Source: Microlunatus panaciterrae
GTDB lineage: Bacteria > Actinomycetota > Actinomycetes > Propionibacteriales > Propionibacteriaceae
Assembly (NCBI RefSeq): GCF_016907535.1
Contig: NZ_JAFBCF010000001.1
Span: forward strand, 1,426,001 to 1,490,000
Length of the DNA stretch: 64,000 nt
Reading direction: 5' to 3'
Numbering within the stretch: the first letter of the stretch is position 1; each line of letters starts with the position of its first letter. The notes beneath the pieces are model-generated. The model was given only the letters and a program-made list of their open reading frames with translations. It searched no databases and was not told the DNA's origin. Shown one piece after another: positions 42,920-49,291 of this stretch. The translations under genes and the position numbers were made by a program.

Positions 42920-42948
42920 GTTAGAACATTACCTGATCGGGTCGTCAA
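42920..42948 (-). promoter_or_regulatory. lsr2 promoter in an AT-rich island
   Basis: On the minus strand, -35 TTGACG (42943-42948), a 17-base spacer and -10 TCTAAC (42920-42925). The -35 overlaps the nadC stop codon. The surrounding 42873-42995 is the most AT-rich stretch noticed in the window, which suits autorepression by Lsr2; that part is inference. Confidence 0.7.
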
Positions 42949-43868
42949 GAATGCAAATCAAGCGCAACATCTAATATAGGTGAGGAATGTGTTATTGCAC
43001 CCACGGCGACGAAGTCGACGCCGGTGGCAGCGACCTCTGCGGCATCCTCGACCGTCAGCCCACCGCTGGCCTCAAACCGGGCTCGGCCCTTCAGCTGCCG
43101 CACCACCTCGGTCATCTCTTCGGCCGACATGTTGTCCAGCAGCACCTCGTCGGCACCGGCGTCGACCACCGCAACGGCCTGGTCGCGGGTGGTGACCTCC
43201 ACCTGGACGGTGATGTCGGGAAAGGCCCGACGCACAGCCCGATAGGCCTCGACCACGCCGCCAGCGGCGATCACATGGTTGTCCTTGATCAGCGCGGCGT
43301 CGGCCAGCGACATCCGGTGGTTGACCCCGCCACCGACCCGGACCGCGTACTTCTGCAGGATGCGCAGCCCAGGGATGGTCTTGCGCGAGTCGCGGACCCG
43401 GGTGCCGGTGCCGCTCAGAGCCGACACCCAGGCCCGGGTCGCAGTGGCCACTCCGGACATCATGGTGACCAGGTTGAGCGCCACCCGTTCGGCGCGCAGC
43501 AGGGCCCGGGTGTTGCCGGTCACGGTCAGCAGTACGTCCCCCCGCGCCACCTGGTCGCCGTCCTTCACCCCTGCGGTCAGGCTGAACGGCCCGGCCGGGC
43601 TCAGCACCAGCGCCAGAGTGAGGGCGACCACCGGCATGCCGGCGATGGTGCCCGGTCGCCGGGCGACGAAGTCGCCGGTGGCCGTAGCCTCGGCGGGAAT
43701 GGTGGCCTCCGAGGTGACATCCACACCCGCTCCGGTGCCTGCCGGCAGCACACCACGGCCGCCGAGGTCCTCGTCCAGGGCCTCATTGATGATCAGCGTG
43801 ACGGCCTCCGGGTCGAGCCCCGCCTCGCGGACCAGCTCTCGGGCCGCCTCCAGTGTGGACACGATCAT
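42945..43868 (-). CDS. nadC: Nicotinate-nucleotide pyrophosphorylase (quinolinate phosphoribosyltransferase)
   Basis: 307 residues. Converts quinolinate and PRPP to nicotinate mononucleotide. Signatures: LDEDLGGRG, VALNLVTMMSGVATATR, RDSRKTIPGLRILQKYAVRVGGGVNHRM (cited in parts: DSRKTIPGLR and KYAVRVGGGVNHR), IKDNHV, VEVTTRDQA, EVLLDNM and EASGGL. ATG overlaps the nadB stop (ATGA). The last 20 codons change character: two ATA, one TTA and several A/T-ending codons within the AT-rich lsr2 promoter region. Confidence 0.95.
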   Translation of the reverse strand: MIVSTLEAARELVREAGLDPEAVTLIINEALDEDLGGRGVLPAGTGAGVDVTSEATIPAEATATGDFVARRPGTIAGMPVVALTLALVLSPAGPFSLTAGVKDGDQVARGDVLLTVTGNTRALLRAERVALNLVTMMSGVATATRAWVSALSGTGTRVRDSRKTIPGLRILQKYAVRVGGGVNHRMSLADAALIKDNHVIAAGGVVEAYRAVRRAFPDITVQVEVTTRDQAVAVVDAGADEVLLDNMSAEEMTEVVRQLKGRARFEASGGLTVEDAAEVAATGVDFVAVGAITHSSPILDVALDLHS

Positions 43869-45589
43869 GACATGGTTCCCTTCGCGATCGGCACGAACAT
43901 GTGCCGCAGATGATGATCTTCGAGCTGGGCCAGCAGATGTCCCTGCCAGCCGTCCACCCGGTCCTCGAAGTCGTCGCGCCAGTGAGCTCCCCGGGACTCC
44001 TCCCGAATACGTGCCGAAGCCACCACAACGGTAGCGACCGTCATCAGGTTGGTCGCCTCCCAGGCTTCCAGTCCAGGCACGGCACCGTTGGACTTCGCCA
44101 GCACCGAGAGCTCCTCGGCGCACCGGTCCAGTCCTCGGGCGCTCCGCAGGCCGCCGGCATAGCGGCTCATCGCCTGCTGCATCGTCGGCACCACCGACCG
44201 GTCGATCAGGCCCGGCTCGCGCGGGTCCTCGGCCGGCTGCCGTCTCGGCGGCGGTTGATCATGAAGACTGATGGCGATCCGCCGGGCGAAGACCAGCCCC
44301 TCGAGCAACGAGTTGGAGGCCAGCCGGTTCGCACCGTGCACGCCGGACGAGGCGACCTCGCCACAGGCGTACAGACCGGTCAGGCTGGTGGCACCGTCGA
44401 GGTCGGTCTCGATGCCGCCACAGAAGTAGTGGCAGGCCGGCGACACCGGGATCAGGTCGGTGACCGGGTTGATGCCGACCTGCCGGCAGCTGTTCAAGAT
44501 CGTCGGGAAGCGCACCCGCCACATCTCCTCGCCGAGCATCCGCCCGTCGACGAACACGTGGTCGCTGTCCTCTTTCGCCATCTCCTTCATGATCGCCTTC
44601 GCGACCACGTCGCGAGGTGCCAGTTCGGCCAACGGGTGCTGCCCGATCATGAACCGCTCGCCGGCGCTGTTGAGCAGGTGCGCACCCTCACCACGTACGG
44701 CCTCGCTCACCAGCGGCAGCTGCCCCCGGGCTCCCGGCCCCAGGTAGAGGACAGTGGGGTGGAACTGGATGAACTCGACGTCGCGCAGCCGCGCACCGGC
44801 CCGCAGCGCTGCAGCCACCCCGTCACCTGTGGAGACGGGCGGGTTGGTGGTCGCTGCGTAGATCTGGCCGATCCCGCCGGTGGCCAGCACCACTGCCCGG
44901 GCATGCACGGCGCCGACGCCACCCCGGGTGCCCGCCCCCATCACGTGCAGGGTGACACCGGCCACGCCGGGCAAGTCGCCGGCCGCTGGAATCAGGTCCA
45001 GCACCAGCGCATGCTCGACGATCTCGATCTCGGGCATGCTCTTCACCTTCGACACCAGCGCGCGCTCGATCTCGGCTCCGGTGGCGTCGCCGCCGGCATG
45101 CGCGATCCGGTTGCGATGGTGGCCGCCCTCTCGGGTCAGCTCCAGCTCGCCCGCCTCGTCCCGGTCGAACTCGGCGCCGCGGGCGATCAGCTCGGCGACC
45201 GCGTCCGGACCCTCACTGACGAGCACCCGGACGGCGTCCGGTACGCACAGCCCGGCACCGGCCACGAGGGTGTCGTCGATGTGCTGCTCGACCGTGTCAC
45301 CCTCTGCCTGTACGGAGGCGATGCCGCCCTGCGCCCACGGCGTGGAACCGGCTGCCACCACACTCTTGGTGACCACCATCACCTTGCCGAGGTCGCTGCA
45401 CTCCAGTGCGGCGGTCAGACCGGCGATGCCGGAGCCCACCACCACGACGTCCACCTCGGCCACCCACCCCGGCGCTTCGCTGGCCAGCCGTCCTGGGAGC
45501 TCGGGCAGGGGTGGCAGCTGCGGCAGCCGCGGGGGCGTCGGCACCGCAGGCTGGTCGCCTTGGGTCTGGTCGGGTTGCTCGGGCACCAT
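43865..45589 (-). CDS. nadB: L-aspartate oxidase
   Basis: 574 residues from ATG 45589. FAD enzyme oxidising aspartate to iminoaspartate, first step of NAD synthesis. FAD site VVVVGSGIAGLTAALE, then STPWAQGGIAS, EGGHHRNRIAHAGGDATG, VLATGGIGQIYAATTNP, EFIQFHPTVLY, ACHYFCGGIETD and ASSGVHGANRLASNSLLEGLV. The first 45 residues are Pro-rich and not family-like; the start lies only seven bases from the divergent methyltransferase start, so a GTG further in may be the real one. nadA is not in the window. Confidence 0.93.
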   Translation of the reverse strand: MVPEQPDQTQGDQPAVPTPPRLPQLPPLPELPGRLASEAPGWVAEVDVVVVGSGIAGLTAALECSDLGKVMVVTKSVVAAGSTPWAQGGIASVQAEGDTVEQHIDDTLVAGAGLCVPDAVRVLVSEGPDAVAELIARGAEFDRDEAGELELTREGGHHRNRIAHAGGDATGAEIERALVSKVKSMPEIEIVEHALVLDLIPAAGDLPGVAGVTLHVMGAGTRGGVGAVHARAVVLATGGIGQIYAATTNPPVSTGDGVAAALRAGARLRDVEFIQFHPTVLYLGPGARGQLPLVSEAVRGEGAHLLNSAGERFMIGQHPLAELAPRDVVAKAIMKEMAKEDSDHVFVDGRMLGEEMWRVRFPTILNSCRQVGINPVTDLIPVSPACHYFCGGIETDLDGATSLTGLYACGEVASSGVHGANRLASNSLLEGLVFARRIAISLHDQPPPRRQPAEDPREPGLIDRSVVPTMQQAMSRYAGGLRSARGLDRCAEELSVLAKSNGAVPGLEAWEATNLMTVATVVVASARIREESRGAHWRDDFEDRVDGWQGHLLAQLEDHHLRHMFVPIAKGTMS

Positions 45590-45596
45590 GAGGAAC

Positions 45597-46577
45597 ATGT
45601 TCTCGCATGCCCTTTCCTGGCGTTCCGCGTGGGCCACGGCTGCCTACGGCGACGACGGGTTCTGGCGTACCGAACGGCCGATCGGCCACTTCCGCACCGC
45701 GGCCGCCACCACGGATCTGCAGGCCAGGATGATCGCCGCAGTGCTGGCGCGGGCACCGGAGATCGGGGCAGTTGTCGATCTTGGCGCCGGTGACGGGCAG
45801 TTGCTCAACTCCCTGCTCCAGCTCCGCCCCGACCTGGCCTTCTATGGCATCGACCTGCGGGAGCGGCCCGATGATCTCGACGACGACGTGACCTGGTGCC
45901 GCGACCTGTGGGATGTGGAGACGACAGCCTGGACCAGCGGTGAGGCGTTCGTCGTCCTGGCGACGCTCGACCGGCCCACGCTCTTGTTGGCGGTGGAATG
46001 GCTCGACGATCTCCCGTGCACCATCTGCCAGCGGCAGGGTCGTTCGCTGCGCCTGGTCGACGTCGATGACACCGGCAACGAGACGCTGGGCATGGAGGCC
46101 TCGGCTGATGATCACGCCTGGGCCGGGCACTGGTGGCCGGAGGGTCCCCGGGTCGAGGTCGGGAGCAGCCGGGATCGGGCCTGGGCCGCCGCCTGTGCGC
46201 AGCTGCAGGGCTATGGCGGTCTCGGATTGGTGATCGACTACGGGCACCTCGGCGCGGACCGCCCCAGCAGCGGCACGCTGACCGGGTTCAGCCACGGGCA
46301 CCAGTGCCCACCCCTGCCCACCGGCCAGATGAACCTGACCGCCCATGTGGCGATCGACGCTGTCGCTGTGGCGGCCGAGCACATCGGCGCCGAAACGGTC
46401 GAGCTCGTGCGGCAGAAGGACGTAGCCGAACGACTGCTCGCGCAGCAGGGGCCGGTCGGCGGCGATGCGCTGACCGCCCTGGTCCGCCGGAGCGAGATGC
46501 ACGCGATCACCGCGCCGACGGTCTTCGGCGACTTCTGGTGGCTGCTGCAACGGGTGCCGCCCGCTGACCGTCGCTAG
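45597..46577 (+). CDS. MidA-type SAM-dependent methyltransferase
   Basis: 326 residues. N-terminal SWRSAWATAAYGDDGFWRT..IGHFRTA follows the MidA/NDUFAF7 pattern (W..A.YG..GF....GHF.T), the SAM-binding loop is VVDLGAGDGQL (D61-G67), and the late GLVIDYGHL ... SGTLTGFSHG and MNLTAHVAIDAV match the PF02636 signature. The mitochondrial family member dimethylates an arginine of the complex I NDUFS2 (NuoD) subunit. Here the stop is followed with no gap by a NuoD-like gene, which strongly suggests an enzyme-substrate or assembly pair. Confidence 0.82.
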   Translation: MFSHALSWRSAWATAAYGDDGFWRTERPIGHFRTAAATTDLQARMIAAVLARAPEIGAVVDLGAGDGQLLNSLLQLRPDLAFYGIDLRERPDDLDDDVTWCRDLWDVETTAWTSGEAFVVLATLDRPTLLLAVEWLDDLPCTICQRQGRSLRLVDVDDTGNETLGMEASADDHAWAGHWWPEGPRVEVGSSRDRAWAAACAQLQGYGGLGLVIDYGHLGADRPSSGTLTGFSHGHQCPPLPTGQMNLTAHVAIDAVAVAAEHIGAETVELVRQKDVAERLLAQQGPVGGDALTALVRRSEMHAITAPTVFGDFWWLLQRVPPADRR

Positions 46578-47762
46578 ATGCTGGAGACTGGCGGCATGCA
46601 CTCGTCGCTCCGCGTCCTGGTCGGTTCGCTGGCGCCCGGGGTGCTGCCGACCACGAGGTCGGACCGCCTTCCCGACGGCACGGTGCTGCTCGACCTCGGC
46701 GAGGACCATCCCAGCCGGGCCGGACTGCTGGAGCTCCGGCTGTGGACCCAGGACGGCACCGTCAGCACCGCCGAGGTTGTGGTCGGCGCCATGCACCGGG
46801 GCGCCGAGAAGCTCTTCGAGGTGCGGGAGTACCGCCAGATACTGATGCTCGCGGACCGGCACGACTGGCAGGCGCCGTTTGCCGGCGAGCTCTGCGTCGC
46901 ACTGGCTTGCGAGAAGATGCTCGGTCTCGAGGTGCCACCGAGGGCGGTCTGGCTGCGCACGCTACTGGCCGAGCACGGCAGGATCCTCAGCCATCTGGGC
47001 TTCCTCGGCTACGTCGGCCGCACGACCCGGACCCCGACCGGGCTGCCCCGGCTGCGCGAGCGGCTCCGGGGCCAGAACCGTGCGCTCACCGGCAACCGGG
47101 TCCACCCGATGGCCAACCGGTTGGGCGGGCTCGCGGTCGACGCCGACGACGGCTGGCTGGCCGAGGAGCTGGCCGTGCTGGACGAGGTCGATCGGGAGAT
47201 GCGGCAGCTGCGCCTGATGGTCGACTCAGAGGAGTTCACCGCCCGCAGCCGCGGGGTCGCCCGGCTCCAACGCGACGTGATCATGGCGTACGGGGTGAGT
47301 GGTCCTGCCGCCCGGGCGTCCGGCCTGGAGCTGGACCTGCGTCGATCTGAGCCCTACCTCGCCTATCCGGAGCTGGCCGAGCTGATCACCACCGCGCGTC
47401 AGGATGCCGGCGACGCCTGGGCTCGGTTCGTCCAGCTGGTCGAGGAGGTGGCCGCGAGCAGCCGCCTGGTCCGGGCAGCTGCCGAGCGGCTGGCGGGGCG
47501 TCCCGGGCCGGTGGACGTCAAGCTGCCCAAGATCATCAAGCTGCCCGAGGGGGCCGGCTATCTCAGCACCGAGGCGCCACTCGGTACCGCCGGCTGCTAC
47601 CTCGTTTCGCGCGGCGAGAAGACGCCGTGGCGGCTGAAGCTGCGCACCGCCTCCTTCAACAACGTTGCGGCCCTGGAAGCCCTGCTGATCGGCTGTCGGG
47701 TGACCGATCTCGAGATGGCTCTGGCCTCGATGGGCTACGTGGTCGGCGACATCGACAAGTGA
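46578..47762 (+). CDS. Orphan NuoD-like protein (NADH dehydrogenase 49 kDa / hydrogenase large subunit fold)
   Basis: 394 residues from ATG 46578 (ATG 46596, with GGAG upstream, is equally possible). Canonical NuoD landmarks survive: LGEDHPSRAGLLEL for GPxHPsthGvLrL, AMHRGAEKLFE (R74) for the HRGxEKL segment, GELCVALACEKMLGLEVPPRAVWLR for the NEx..A.A.EKLxGx.vP.RaxxiR region, HGRILSHLGFLG, and the C-terminal RTASFNNVAALEALLIGCRVTDLE and VVGDIDK, where the final Arg of NuoD is Lys. No other nuo gene is nearby. It starts directly after the MidA-type gene. Not an [NiFe] hydrogenase: no CxxC pairs. Confidence 0.8.
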   Translation: MLETGGMHSSLRVLVGSLAPGVLPTTRSDRLPDGTVLLDLGEDHPSRAGLLELRLWTQDGTVSTAEVVVGAMHRGAEKLFEVREYRQILMLADRHDWQAPFAGELCVALACEKMLGLEVPPRAVWLRTLLAEHGRILSHLGFLGYVGRTTRTPTGLPRLRERLRGQNRALTGNRVHPMANRLGGLAVDADDGWLAEELAVLDEVDREMRQLRLMVDSEEFTARSRGVARLQRDVIMAYGVSGPAARASGLELDLRRSEPYLAYPELAELITTARQDAGDAWARFVQLVEEVAASSRLVRAAAERLAGRPGPVDVKLPKIIKLPEGAGYLSTEAPLGTAGCYLVSRGEKTPWRLKLRTASFNNVAALEALLIGCRVTDLEMALASMGYVVGDIDK

Positions 47763-47777
47763 GGCATGCGCATTCGA

Positions 47778-48365
47778 TCATGCTGACGCGTCGCCCGGCG
47801 CGTGCAGGTGCGCACGTTCGCCGTCGTGGTCGAGGACAGTCAGGATCTCCAGCGGCCCGCCCTCGGCCCCGATGAGGTGCGGGACCATGGTCGAGAACTC
47901 GGCCGCCTCACCCGCCCGGATGACGATGGTCCTCTCCCCCAGCTGCAGGCGGGCCGTGCCGGAGAGCACCGTGAACCACTCGCGACCCGGATGCACCCGC
48001 TGCTGCTGCGCTCCGGTCGGACGTTCGGGCGTGATCCGCATCTTGGCCACCGTGACGCCTTGGGGAGAACCTTCGCGCGAGAGCAGCCAGGTCGTCACCC
48101 CGTGCAGGTGGCCGGGCTGCGGTCGGATCACCACATCCTCGTCGTCGCCGGACGCCACCAGCTGGTCCAGCGTCGTGCCGAGCGCCCGGGCCATGGCCAC
48201 CAGCTGGTCGAGGGCGATCCGGCGGTGCCCGGTCTCTATTCGGCTCAGCGTGGACGGGCTGAGCTGGCACCGGGCCGCGAGGGCGTCCAGGGACCAGCCG
48301 CGGGAGAGGCGCAGCCCCCTGATGCGACGGCGGATCAACGAGTCGAGCTCGAGTTCTTGCGTCAT
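47778..48365 (-). CDS. XRE-family regulator with C-terminal cupin domain
   Basis: 195 residues. Helix-turn-helix at about 10-65 (LRLSRGWSLDALAARCQLSPSTLSRIETGHR), then a cupin beta-barrel (residues about 110-190; VHPGREWFTVLSGTARLQLGE ... VIRAGEAAEFSTMVPHLIGAEGG) that should bind a small effector. Divergent from a methyltransferase gene with 47 bases between start codons; regulators of this class usually control the divergent neighbour. A leaderless-type TATGAT ends seven bases before the ATG. Confidence 0.88.
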   Translation of the reverse strand: MTQELELDSLIRRRIRGLRLSRGWSLDALAARCQLSPSTLSRIETGHRRIALDQLVAMARALGTTLDQLVASGDDEDVVIRPQPGHLHGVTTWLLSREGSPQGVTVAKMRITPERPTGAQQQRVHPGREWFTVLSGTARLQLGERTIVIRAGEAAEFSTMVPHLIGAEGGPLEILTVLDHDGERAHLHAPGDASA

Positions 48366-48372
48366 AAGCAAG

Positions 48373-48406
48373 ATCATATGTCTCTGGCGCAGAAGCGGAC
48401 TAGCCT
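48373..48406. promoter_or_regulatory. Divergent leaderless-type promoters of the XRE-cupin and methyltransferase genes
   Basis: Minus strand TATGAT (48373-48378) ends seven bases before ATG 48365; plus strand TAGCCT (48401-48406) ends six bases before ATG 48413. With only 47 bases between the genes, a repressor bound here would block both. Confidence 0.55.
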
Positions 48407-48412
48407 CCTTCC

Positions 48413-49291
48413 ATGACCCAGCACCAGCACCGGCACGACGCCGGGCTCCCCGACCCCCACCAAACACGTCGGCAGGAGCAGGACCTGGCCGACCTCTTGA
48501 CCCTGGACACCGAGGTGTTCGGCTGCTATCTGGACGAGGTCACCGGATGGGTGGAGCAACAGCTACCGGCCGACCCGCGGACGGTCCTCGACCTCGGTGC
48601 CGGTACGGGCGCGGGCAGCGTCGCGCTCGCCCGGCGCTTCGAGCGCGCTGACGTCCTGGCTGTGGACAGATCCGCTCTGCTGCTCGACCACGTCCGAGCG
48701 GCAGCACACCGGCAGGGACTCGCCGCTCGGGTGCACCCGCTACAGGCCGACCTTGACGCGGCCTGGCCCAGCGTCGGCGCGGTCGATGTGGCCTGGGCCG
48801 CTTCGTCGCTGCACGAGGTCGCCGACCCGGATCGGACCTTGGCTGACCTCCACGCCGCACTCAGCCCAGGTGGGCTGCTGGTGGTCATCGAGATGGACGT
48901 CCTGCCGCGCTTCCTGCCCGTCGACCTCGGACTCGGGCGCCCCGGCCTCGAGTCACGCTGTCACCAGGCGCTGGCCCACAAGGGGTTGAATGCGCACCCG
49001 GACTGGCGGCCTCACCTGGAGCGGGCCGGCTTCGACGTCATCGGCCAGCGCCGCTTCACCGTCGAGGCGGATCCTGCCGCACCGAGCGTCGGCCGGTATG
49101 CCCAGAGCTACCTACGTCGCATCCGGGCCGCCCTGGACGGCGAGCTGGCGGACGACGACGTTGCCACCCTCGATCTGCTCCTGGCTGACCAGGGCCCCGA
49201 CGCCGTGCCGAACCGCCGCGACCTGACGGTCCGCAGCAGCCGGACCGCCTGGGCTGCTCGACGACCGCGCGCCGGAGGATCCGCTGCCTGA
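48413..49291 (+). CDS. Class I SAM-dependent methyltransferase
   Basis: 292 residues. SAM-binding motif I TVLDLGAGTGAGSVALARRF, acidic end of strand 2 LAVDRS, then DVAWAASSLHEVADPDRTLADLHAALSPGGLLVVIEMD. The N-terminus is His-rich (MTQHQHRHDAG). The substrate is unknown. Probably controlled by the divergent XRE-cupin regulator. Convergent with a PhyH gene seven bases away. Confidence 0.87.
   Translation: MTQHQHRHDAGLPDPHQTRRQEQDLADLLTLDTEVFGCYLDEVTGWVEQQLPADPRTVLDLGAGTGAGSVALARRFERADVLAVDRSALLLDHVRAAAHRQGLAARVHPLQADLDAAWPSVGAVDVAWAASSLHEVADPDRTLADLHAALSPGGLLVVIEMDVLPRFLPVDLGLGRPGLESRCHQALAHKGLNAHPDWRPHLERAGFDVIGQRRFTVEADPAAPSVGRYAQSYLRRIRAALDGELADDDVATLDLLLADQGPDAVPNRRDLTVRSSRTAWAARRPRAGGSAA

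Follow-up and report, generated by a model that had tools for sequence, protein, structure and literature searches.

The closest described counterparts of the locus treated here come from mitochondrial and bacterial complex I. The methyltransferase NDUFAF7, a MidA homolog, acts on Arg85 of subunit NDUFS2, within an HRGxEK segment beside iron-sulfur cluster N2 (passages in PMC3829151, PMC8042128 and PMC9006661; PDB 5ztz). A passage in PMC8042128 also describes an inter-subunit switch, in which either an arginine of NDUFS2 is combined with a threonine of NDUFS7, or a threonine of NuoD with an arginine (R83) of NuoB, as in Thermus thermophilus. A second set of complex I genes, nuo2, occurs in Streptomyces, where its function is called unclear (passage in PMC9239103) and where nuoD2 is located apart from the nuo2 cluster (passage in PMC8388888); nuoD2 itself is already published for this genus. 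For complex I enzymes of 11 subunits, ferredoxin or an oxoacid oxidoreductase was proposed as electron donor in a passage of PMC11238625. Here we analyze a 64,000-nucleotide stretch of Microlunatus panaciterrae DNA (the window, C1:1426001-1490000 of a 4.07 Mb single-contig genome; contig NZ_JAFBCF010000001.1), in which a midA-like gene is directly followed by a gene for a NuoD-like protein. The latter is very probably nuoD2, encoding the D subunit of a module derived from nuo2, and the neighboring MidA is predicted to methylate its product.

The MidA-type and NuoD-like proteins

The upstream protein, taken for a MidA-type methyltransferase in the initial annotation, indeed matches PF02636 (Methyltransf_28), scoring 53.6 bits where the cut-off is 23.3, and it is the single match to this family in the whole genome. 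Its structure model has a pLDDT (predicted local distance difference test) of 90.8, the six top-ranking PDB fold matches are without exception COG1565/DUF185/MidA entries, with MidA named in two of the titles, and S-adenosylmethionine motif I, VVDLGAGDG, is conserved. The downstream protein matches PF00346 with 170 bits (cut-off 24) and stays below the cut-off in all seven NCBIfam families that it matches; the NuoD equivalog cut-offs are not reached, with 257 versus 360 bits for NF004739 and 225 versus 459 bits for TIGR01962. Its model (pLDDT 79.5, low at residues 73-77 and 97-101) is matched by Foldseek to 8e9h_D (E 8.7e-20, TMq 0.75). The genome encodes two PF00346 proteins, this NuoD2 and the canonical NuoD, the latter in a separate nuo operon at 2.61 Mb.

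The contiguity reported earlier for the two genes was confirmed, as the midA stop codon TAG at 46575-46577 abuts ATG 46578 of the NuoD-like open reading frame. The real start of nuoD2 is perhaps ATG 46596 (residue 7), which lies near the alignment start of close relatives and has GGAG upstream, so the abutting codons do not necessarily represent literal coupling. Also in agreement with the first description, whole-genome searches for NuoD, NuoB, NuoH and NuoJ gave no further copy in the window, the remaining nuo families not being part of these searches.

Residue R74 of NuoD2 is the equivalent of human NDUFS2 Arg85, as had been proposed. Residues 36-316 align with 47-327 of 5xtd_Q at an offset of 11; this human alignment was read as a range only, and an alignment with the fly 49-kDa subunit, which has the same offset and is gapless up to there, pairs HRG with HRG. 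R74, R94, W97 and H176 are each invariant across all 102 distinct sequences of the NuoD2-type family. Some loci were found via exact peptides, and because one of these contains HDW the count for Trp97 is biased for such loci; those of the relatives survey and later ones were not found in this way. The positions of residues 48 and 97 are occupied in canonical NuoD by a His and a Tyr, the quinone ligands. Judged from the alignments, both are absent from NuoD2. A His at position 48 occurs in 84 of the 102 distinct sequences and is lost in the window's family, Propionibacteriaceae. W97 aligns with Y87 of T. thermophilus NuoD, a residue named in a passage of PMC8042128, by the offset of the fly and human alignments. 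The same source lists, in a passage on Yarrowia, R121, R141 and H226 as the second sphere of cluster N2; by spacing, R94 and H176 would correspond to R141 and H226, a mapping that is our own.

In the own genome and 19 relatives canonical NuoD has HTG and Tyr (20/20), whereas the paralogue has HRG and Trp. NuoD2 is thus the sole HRG NuoD of the genome, and since the canonical subunit has Thr at the site, a MidA aimed at this arginine has only NuoD2 to act on. In one relative (G033:C1:3683152-3684277) nuoD2 reads as two pieces that overlap and differ in frame, owing to a frameshift or a sequencing error.

The arginine switch points to a partner other than canonical NuoB. The latter has Arg in 20/20 genomes, 11 of which are also among the 20 with Thr in canonical NuoD. 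The second NuoB described below, NuoB2, has Thr in 18/18 (12 in the family, 6 outside), partnered with Arg in NuoD2. A pattern scan of 64 further loci gave 23 in which both nuoB and nuoD were readable. Where NuoD had Arg, the paired NuoB had Thr in 16 of 18, Trp in two and Arg in none; where NuoD had HTG, NuoB had Arg in four of five, and the fifth (L153) gave no usable NuoB motif. The switch residues pair Arg of NuoD2 with Thr of NuoB2, and NuoD2 therefore fits NuoB2; canonical NuoB is disfavored as its partner. Two loci of family f38 (L216 and L222) show NuoB with Trp at the switch position together with an HRG NuoD, in MidA-bearing genomes.

Co-occurrence and gene order of midA and nuoD2

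The survey of co-occurrence supports the pairing. Among 398 Actinomycetota genomes, 74 are Actinomycetes; MidA was found in 31/31 of these with NuoD2 (30 by PF02636, G266 by profile A2) and, by PF02636, in 0/43 without it. The 31 genomes represent six families, with 23 in one genus, and are not independent. Profile A2 was run on 28 genomes, and weak matches (E 2e-4 to 1e-3) in G019, G021, G034 and G037 were taken as not MidA. Within the order, both proteins are present in 16/16 genomes of two other families and absent from 8/8 of a third, these genomes partly overlapping the class sample. In the window's genus MidA is present in 16/16 genomes with NuoD2 (PF02636 detects 14 of them, A2 the other two) and, one A2 match of 7e-4 aside, in 0/4 without.

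The genes are also neighbors in relatives. In the genus, MidA is directly upstream in ten of 14 loci (L085-L098), with gaps between matches of 23 to 162 bases; two of the 14 end too early to show the upstream gene. In other families a MidA match lies upstream on the same strand, at up to about 5 kb, in 54 of 74 loci (L010-L083), some flanks ending at contig ends and the L066 stretch holding a stop. In streptomycete-like genomes (L170, L171, L197) midA and nuoD2 are arranged tail to tail. Two genomes of the window's genus (G006 and G007; L205 and L204) carry a GntR-type regulator and an ABC transporter cassette between the two genes. The loci L008 (Microlunatus flavus) and L092 (G017, of the window's genus) are identical over 387 nuoD2 codons and 320 midA codons.

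A second complex I and its reduced form

The NuoD-like protein had been regarded as free-standing, an orphan outside complex I. This part of the initial annotation did not survive, although the assignments of the MidA family and of R74, the adjacency and the co-occurrence did, and the idea of a relic or an alternative redox module came close. The D-less nuo2 clusters and the co-occurring second NuoH and NuoB point to a second complex I. In the streptomycete-like genome G078 (L184), nuoA-B-C-H-I-J-K-L-M-N form a cluster from which nuoD is missing, some 4.4 kb away from genes of the korB-korA type. In G266 (L188) a D-less nuo2 cluster carries the only NuoH found in the genome, of the second type, and NuoD2 is the only NuoD at E <= 1e-60. 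A search for NuoH in 69 genomes, in which weaker hydrogenase-like or duplicate canonical matches in G090, G181 and G290 were not counted, gave a NuoH of the second type in 34 of 35 genomes that bear NuoD2 and belong to families other than the window's, versus 0/29 without NuoD2. The exception, G111, has a second-type NuoH fragment. Two strong NuoJ copies were found, among 40 genomes, only in G035, G036, G078, G131 and G216, all of which are outside the family and have nuo2. In a locus of another class (L161) a Trp-type NuoD is part of a cluster nuoA-B-C-D-H-I-J-K-L-M-N, and midA follows some 6.6 kb after nuoN. In the majority of the Actinomycetes with NuoD2 that were tested, nuo2 appears to be an 11-subunit enzyme lacking NuoEFG, with nuoD2 outside the cluster.

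In the window's family a smaller set is found. No second NuoH was detected in 5/5 NuoD2-bearing family genomes tested, the single NuoH being in the canonical operon region, and in the own genome (G000) there is no second NuoJ, the one copy likewise being in that region. The own genome has nuoB2, nuoC2 and nuoI2 as consecutive genes, divergent from korA and korB and about 1.19 Mb from nuoD2. A short second NuoB is present in 22/22 family genomes with NuoD2 and in 0/11 without, of which G021 (82% complete) and G029 (71% complete) gave no NuoB at all; for genus g1 alone, 16 genomes are with and 4 without NuoD2 and short NuoB2. The NuoB2 sequence was read in 12 of the 22, and extra PF01058 matches at around 1e-18 to 1e-29 that lie elsewhere than in the canonical operon (G001, G012, G013, G015, G016, G025, G033, G078) were not counted as NuoB2. 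The B2, C2 and I2 genes are adjacent in 12/12 family loci fetched, with korAB in the same stretch in 11/12; korA lies no more than 1.6 kb from nuoB2 in 18 of the 22 family genomes, and in the other four (G002, G030, G017 and G014) the distance is 7.7 to 10.1 kb. An orphan outside any complex is rejected by these B2-C2-I2 loci together with the short NuoB2, the second-type NuoH and the D-less clusters.

The cofactor motifs of the reduced set are intact. NuoB2 keeps the CC, GxC and GCPP cysteines and NuoI2 both CxxCxxCxxxC motifs, each in 12/12, which together are the cysteines of clusters N2, N6a and N6b. The membrane-side PRQAD loop is missing from 12/12 family NuoB2, but 6/6 nuo2-type NuoB from outside the family retain it. 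Conservation thus covers the side facing N2, while the features facing quinone and membrane have disappeared. The KorA-type alpha subunit of the own genome matches TIGR03710 (2-oxoacid:acceptor oxidoreductase) with 646 versus 483 bits. In the L174 stretch that holds these genes no delta gene was found by the KorAB-type pair. With 38.8 bits, below the cut-off of 60, NuoI2 is similar as well to TIGR02179, the family of delta (ferredoxin) subunits of 2-oxoacid oxidoreductases. A korA match with one in-frame TGA is found at G025:C27:4595-6460.

In a tree of 76 rows the 15 family NuoD2 form one clade (100/100) inside the class NuoD2 (34 rows, 100/100), which also includes the NuoD2 of genomes with a D-less nuo2 cluster. 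The tree was midpoint-rooted for drawing only, and letter composition is unusual in several rows. It separates NuoD2 from canonical NuoD, and a recent copy of the latter is rejected.

A separate lineage, G111, has nuo2 A, B, C and I matches at 8047-10358 of L249 (G111:C1:444500-464400) and keeps NuoD2 and MidA. B2, C2 and I2 match along their length, and nuoH2, sought genome-wide, is present in two fragments only; the 20 kb around the nuo2 genes gave no J, K, L or M match, NuoN2 not being part of the search. Its NuoD2 still carries HPATHG. This looks like an earlier, independent step of nuo2 reduction.

Table 1. Positions of the genes and codons discussed, in the window unless a locus is given.
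Feature	Position	Strand	Basis or remark
midA-like gene (PF02636 / COG1565 methyltransferase)	45597..46577, start 45597 or 45588	+	divergent from nadB
nuoD2, D subunit of second, reduced complex I (very probable)	46596..47762, open reading frame opens at ATG 46578	+	PF00346, tree, fold
Codon of R74 (CGG), NDUFS2 Arg85 equivalent, predicted methylation site	46797..46799	+	alignment; kept 102/102
Codon of A48, at lost quinone-site His of complex I	46719..46721	+	comparison with family and canonical NuoD
Codon of W97, at quinone-site Tyr of complex I (T. thermophilus Y87)	46866..46868	+	Trp 102/102
nuoB2 (own genome)	L174 9764-10186		PF01058, 61.7 vs 27 bits
nuoC2 (own genome)	L174 10183-10749		PF00329, 85 vs 22.5 bits
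nuoI2 (own genome)	L174 10746-11069		Fer4, 47.5 vs 21.1 bits
nadB	43868..45637	-	PF00890, TIGR00551; upstream synteny landmark, outside the system
nadC	42948-44123	with nadB	TIGR00078; upstream synteny landmark, outside the system

On the 3' side of nuoD2 the window contains, at 47778-49291, an XRE-cupin regulator (minus strand) and a class I S-adenosylmethionine-dependent methyltransferase (plus strand), which were judged unrelated to the pair.

Proposed mechanism and alternatives

The gene content, residues, phylogeny and selection suggest a mechanism in which the nuo2 membrane arm was lost in Propionibacteriaceae and a peripheral quinone (Q) module of NuoB2, NuoC2, NuoI2 and NuoD2 would remain. 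A KorAB-type 2-oxoacid oxidoreductase, by analogy acting on 2-oxoglutarate, may supply electrons either directly or via ferredoxin. These would enter the two [4Fe-4S] clusters of NuoI2 (N6a-N6b) and proceed to cluster N2 between NuoB2 and NuoD2; entry at NuoI2, exit at N2 and the KorAB-type donor are proposed because of the cofactor motifs and the gene order. During the joining of NuoD2 to NuoB2, MidA could dimethylate R74 and thereby set and stabilize N2, as NDUFAF7 does for NDUFS2. Since NuoD2 no longer has the quinone ligands and NuoB2 has lost its membrane-facing loop, the module would probably pass its electrons to a soluble acceptor. Methylation of R74, where MidA is present, is likely. 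A soluble module linked to the KorAB-type enzyme is an even call. For the explanation as a whole, comprising NuoD2 in a nuo2-derived Q module, a KorAB-type donor, MidA acting on R74 and a soluble acceptor, the balance is moderately favorable. That Propionibacteriaceae made the Q module membrane-free, fed by 2-oxoacids and MidA-methylated, with its quinone site shed, and that G111 independently follows the same path, may be right or wrong with similar probability.

Several observations speak against parts of this explanation. The best NCBIfam matches of the reduced subunits are under cut-off (NuoB 97.6 versus 116, NuoC 60 versus 122, NuoI 56 versus 113). The oxidoreductase of the own genome meets no 2-oxoglutarate equivalog, and its beta subunit falls just short of TIGR02177 (252.9 versus 261.9 bits). 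KorA is also encoded by 8 of the 11 family genomes that lack nuo2, and it is therefore a neighbor and not an exclusive partner; a strict partnership is rejected on this ground. Four stretches around other nuo2 clusters, L185, L187, L188 and L189, gave no korA, although L187 stops at a contig end; in the genome of L189 korA is about 12.5 kb from nuoB2. As to the methyltransferase, MidA was not found in six NuoD2-bearing family genomes of other genera (G020, with an assembly of 540 contigs, G022, G025, G028, G030 and G032). R74 is kept in all five MidA-less family NuoD2 that were read. It follows that R74 does not need MidA, and retention of R74 only for methylation is unsupported. Outside the class, NuoD was read in 31 of 85 MidA-bearing genomes; 27 have one with Arg at the site, and G128, G219, G395 and G422 have MidA with only a Thr NuoD, the PF02636 matches of G395 and G422 being weak. 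In other families of the phylum 17/17 Trp-type NuoD (L134-L150) have Arg74, yet their genomes have no PF02636, from which it follows that the combination of Trp97 and Arg74 is older or wider than MidA. Two of these loci, L137 and L140, have the Trp-type, Arg-bearing NuoD in the order nuoB-C-D-H-I.

The five relatives that keep R74 without MidA would also be expected if MidA had a different target and owed its association with NuoD2 to inherited synteny. MidA moreover evolves faster than NuoD2, with ratios of nonsynonymous to synonymous substitution rates (dN/dS, by simple Nei-Gojobori) of 0.26-0.40 in closest pairs and of 0.52 and 0.71 in two wider pairs, and PF02636 scores in the genus are weak. 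We nevertheless consider another target unlikely: the presence and absence of MidA and NuoD2 agree in 74/74 class genomes, one of which required profile A2, and this agreement extends to genes that are separated by kilobases, interrupted by the cassette or placed tail to tail. The fold matches are MidA structures, and the genome offers no other HRG NuoD.

A different fate of the electrons would follow if the B2-C2-D2-I2 arm docked on the canonical membrane arm with its single NuoH and NuoJ, giving an exchangeable, ferredoxin-fed peripheral arm and a hybrid complex I. A hybrid of nuo and nuo2 products was suggested for Streptomyces in a passage of PMC9239103, and canonical NuoH is present in 13/13 family genomes tested. 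Docking is nonetheless improbable in view of the PRQAD loop that family NuoB2 has lost and nuo2 NuoB outside the family has kept, the NuoD2 without a quinone His, and the stem of the family NuoD2 clade, which at 1.08 changes per column is long and suggests lost contacts. That the module, MidA included, is a decaying and functionless relic of nuo2 would agree with the stepwise loss (the nuoH2 fragments of G111 and the absence of J, K, L and M matches within the 20 kb read), with the lack of MidA in some family genomes and of the whole set in others, and with long branches in MidA-less lineages, but it is scarcely probable given closest-pair dN/dS values around 0.2 (NuoD2 0.18-0.29, NuoB2 0.18-0.26, NuoC2 0.19-0.28; NuoI2 0.10-0.21), the retention of all iron-sulfur cysteines in 12/12 and the co-retention of NuoD2 and NuoB2 in 22/22, though in the own genome some 1.19 Mb separates their genes.

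Comparison with known systems

With the assignment to a nuo2-derived module, the widespread lone NuoD of Actinomycetes gets a home and the presence of MidA beside NuoD2 is explained. Among the matches listed in the open-licence PMC literature there was no link of MidA to an actinobacterial NuoD, no nuo2 reduced to B, C, I and D, and no nuo2 with kor. Genomes with both canonical complex I and nuo2 hold the two versions of the switch, the arginine being on NuoD2 in one and on canonical NuoB in the other, and the role of arginine dimethylation for N2 is therefore testable with the main respiratory enzyme untouched. If true, a Q module that has neither membrane arm nor quinone ligands and is still maintained by purifying selection would be a rare soluble system for N2 chemistry.

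The likeness to NDUFAF7 and NDUFS2 consists of the same methyltransferase family and an HRGxEK target beside N2. Here, however, the target is a paralogue and the canonical NuoD has Thr, and the activity of MidA is a prediction. The KorAB-type ketoglutarate:ferredoxin oxidoreductase of Mycobacterium tuberculosis (passage in PMC2773412) is of the same enzyme type; that passage does not mention a nuo2 module, and the own enzyme is recognized as a 2-oxoacid type from its alpha-subunit profile. The 11-subunit enzymes, as described in the passage of PMC11238625, likewise have a Q module and electron entry at NuoI and no NuoEFG, but they have a membrane arm and a quinone site, neither of which was detected in the module of the window's family. 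By description, nuo2 and nuoD2 of Streptomyces belong to the same gene family and share the location of nuoD2 apart from the nuo2 cluster; the nuo2 passages in PMC8388888 and PMC9239103 do not mention MidA. Compared with the Streptomyces system, the window's family has no second NuoH or NuoJ that was found, and what remains of nuo2 is B2, C2, I2 and D2, near korAB-type genes.

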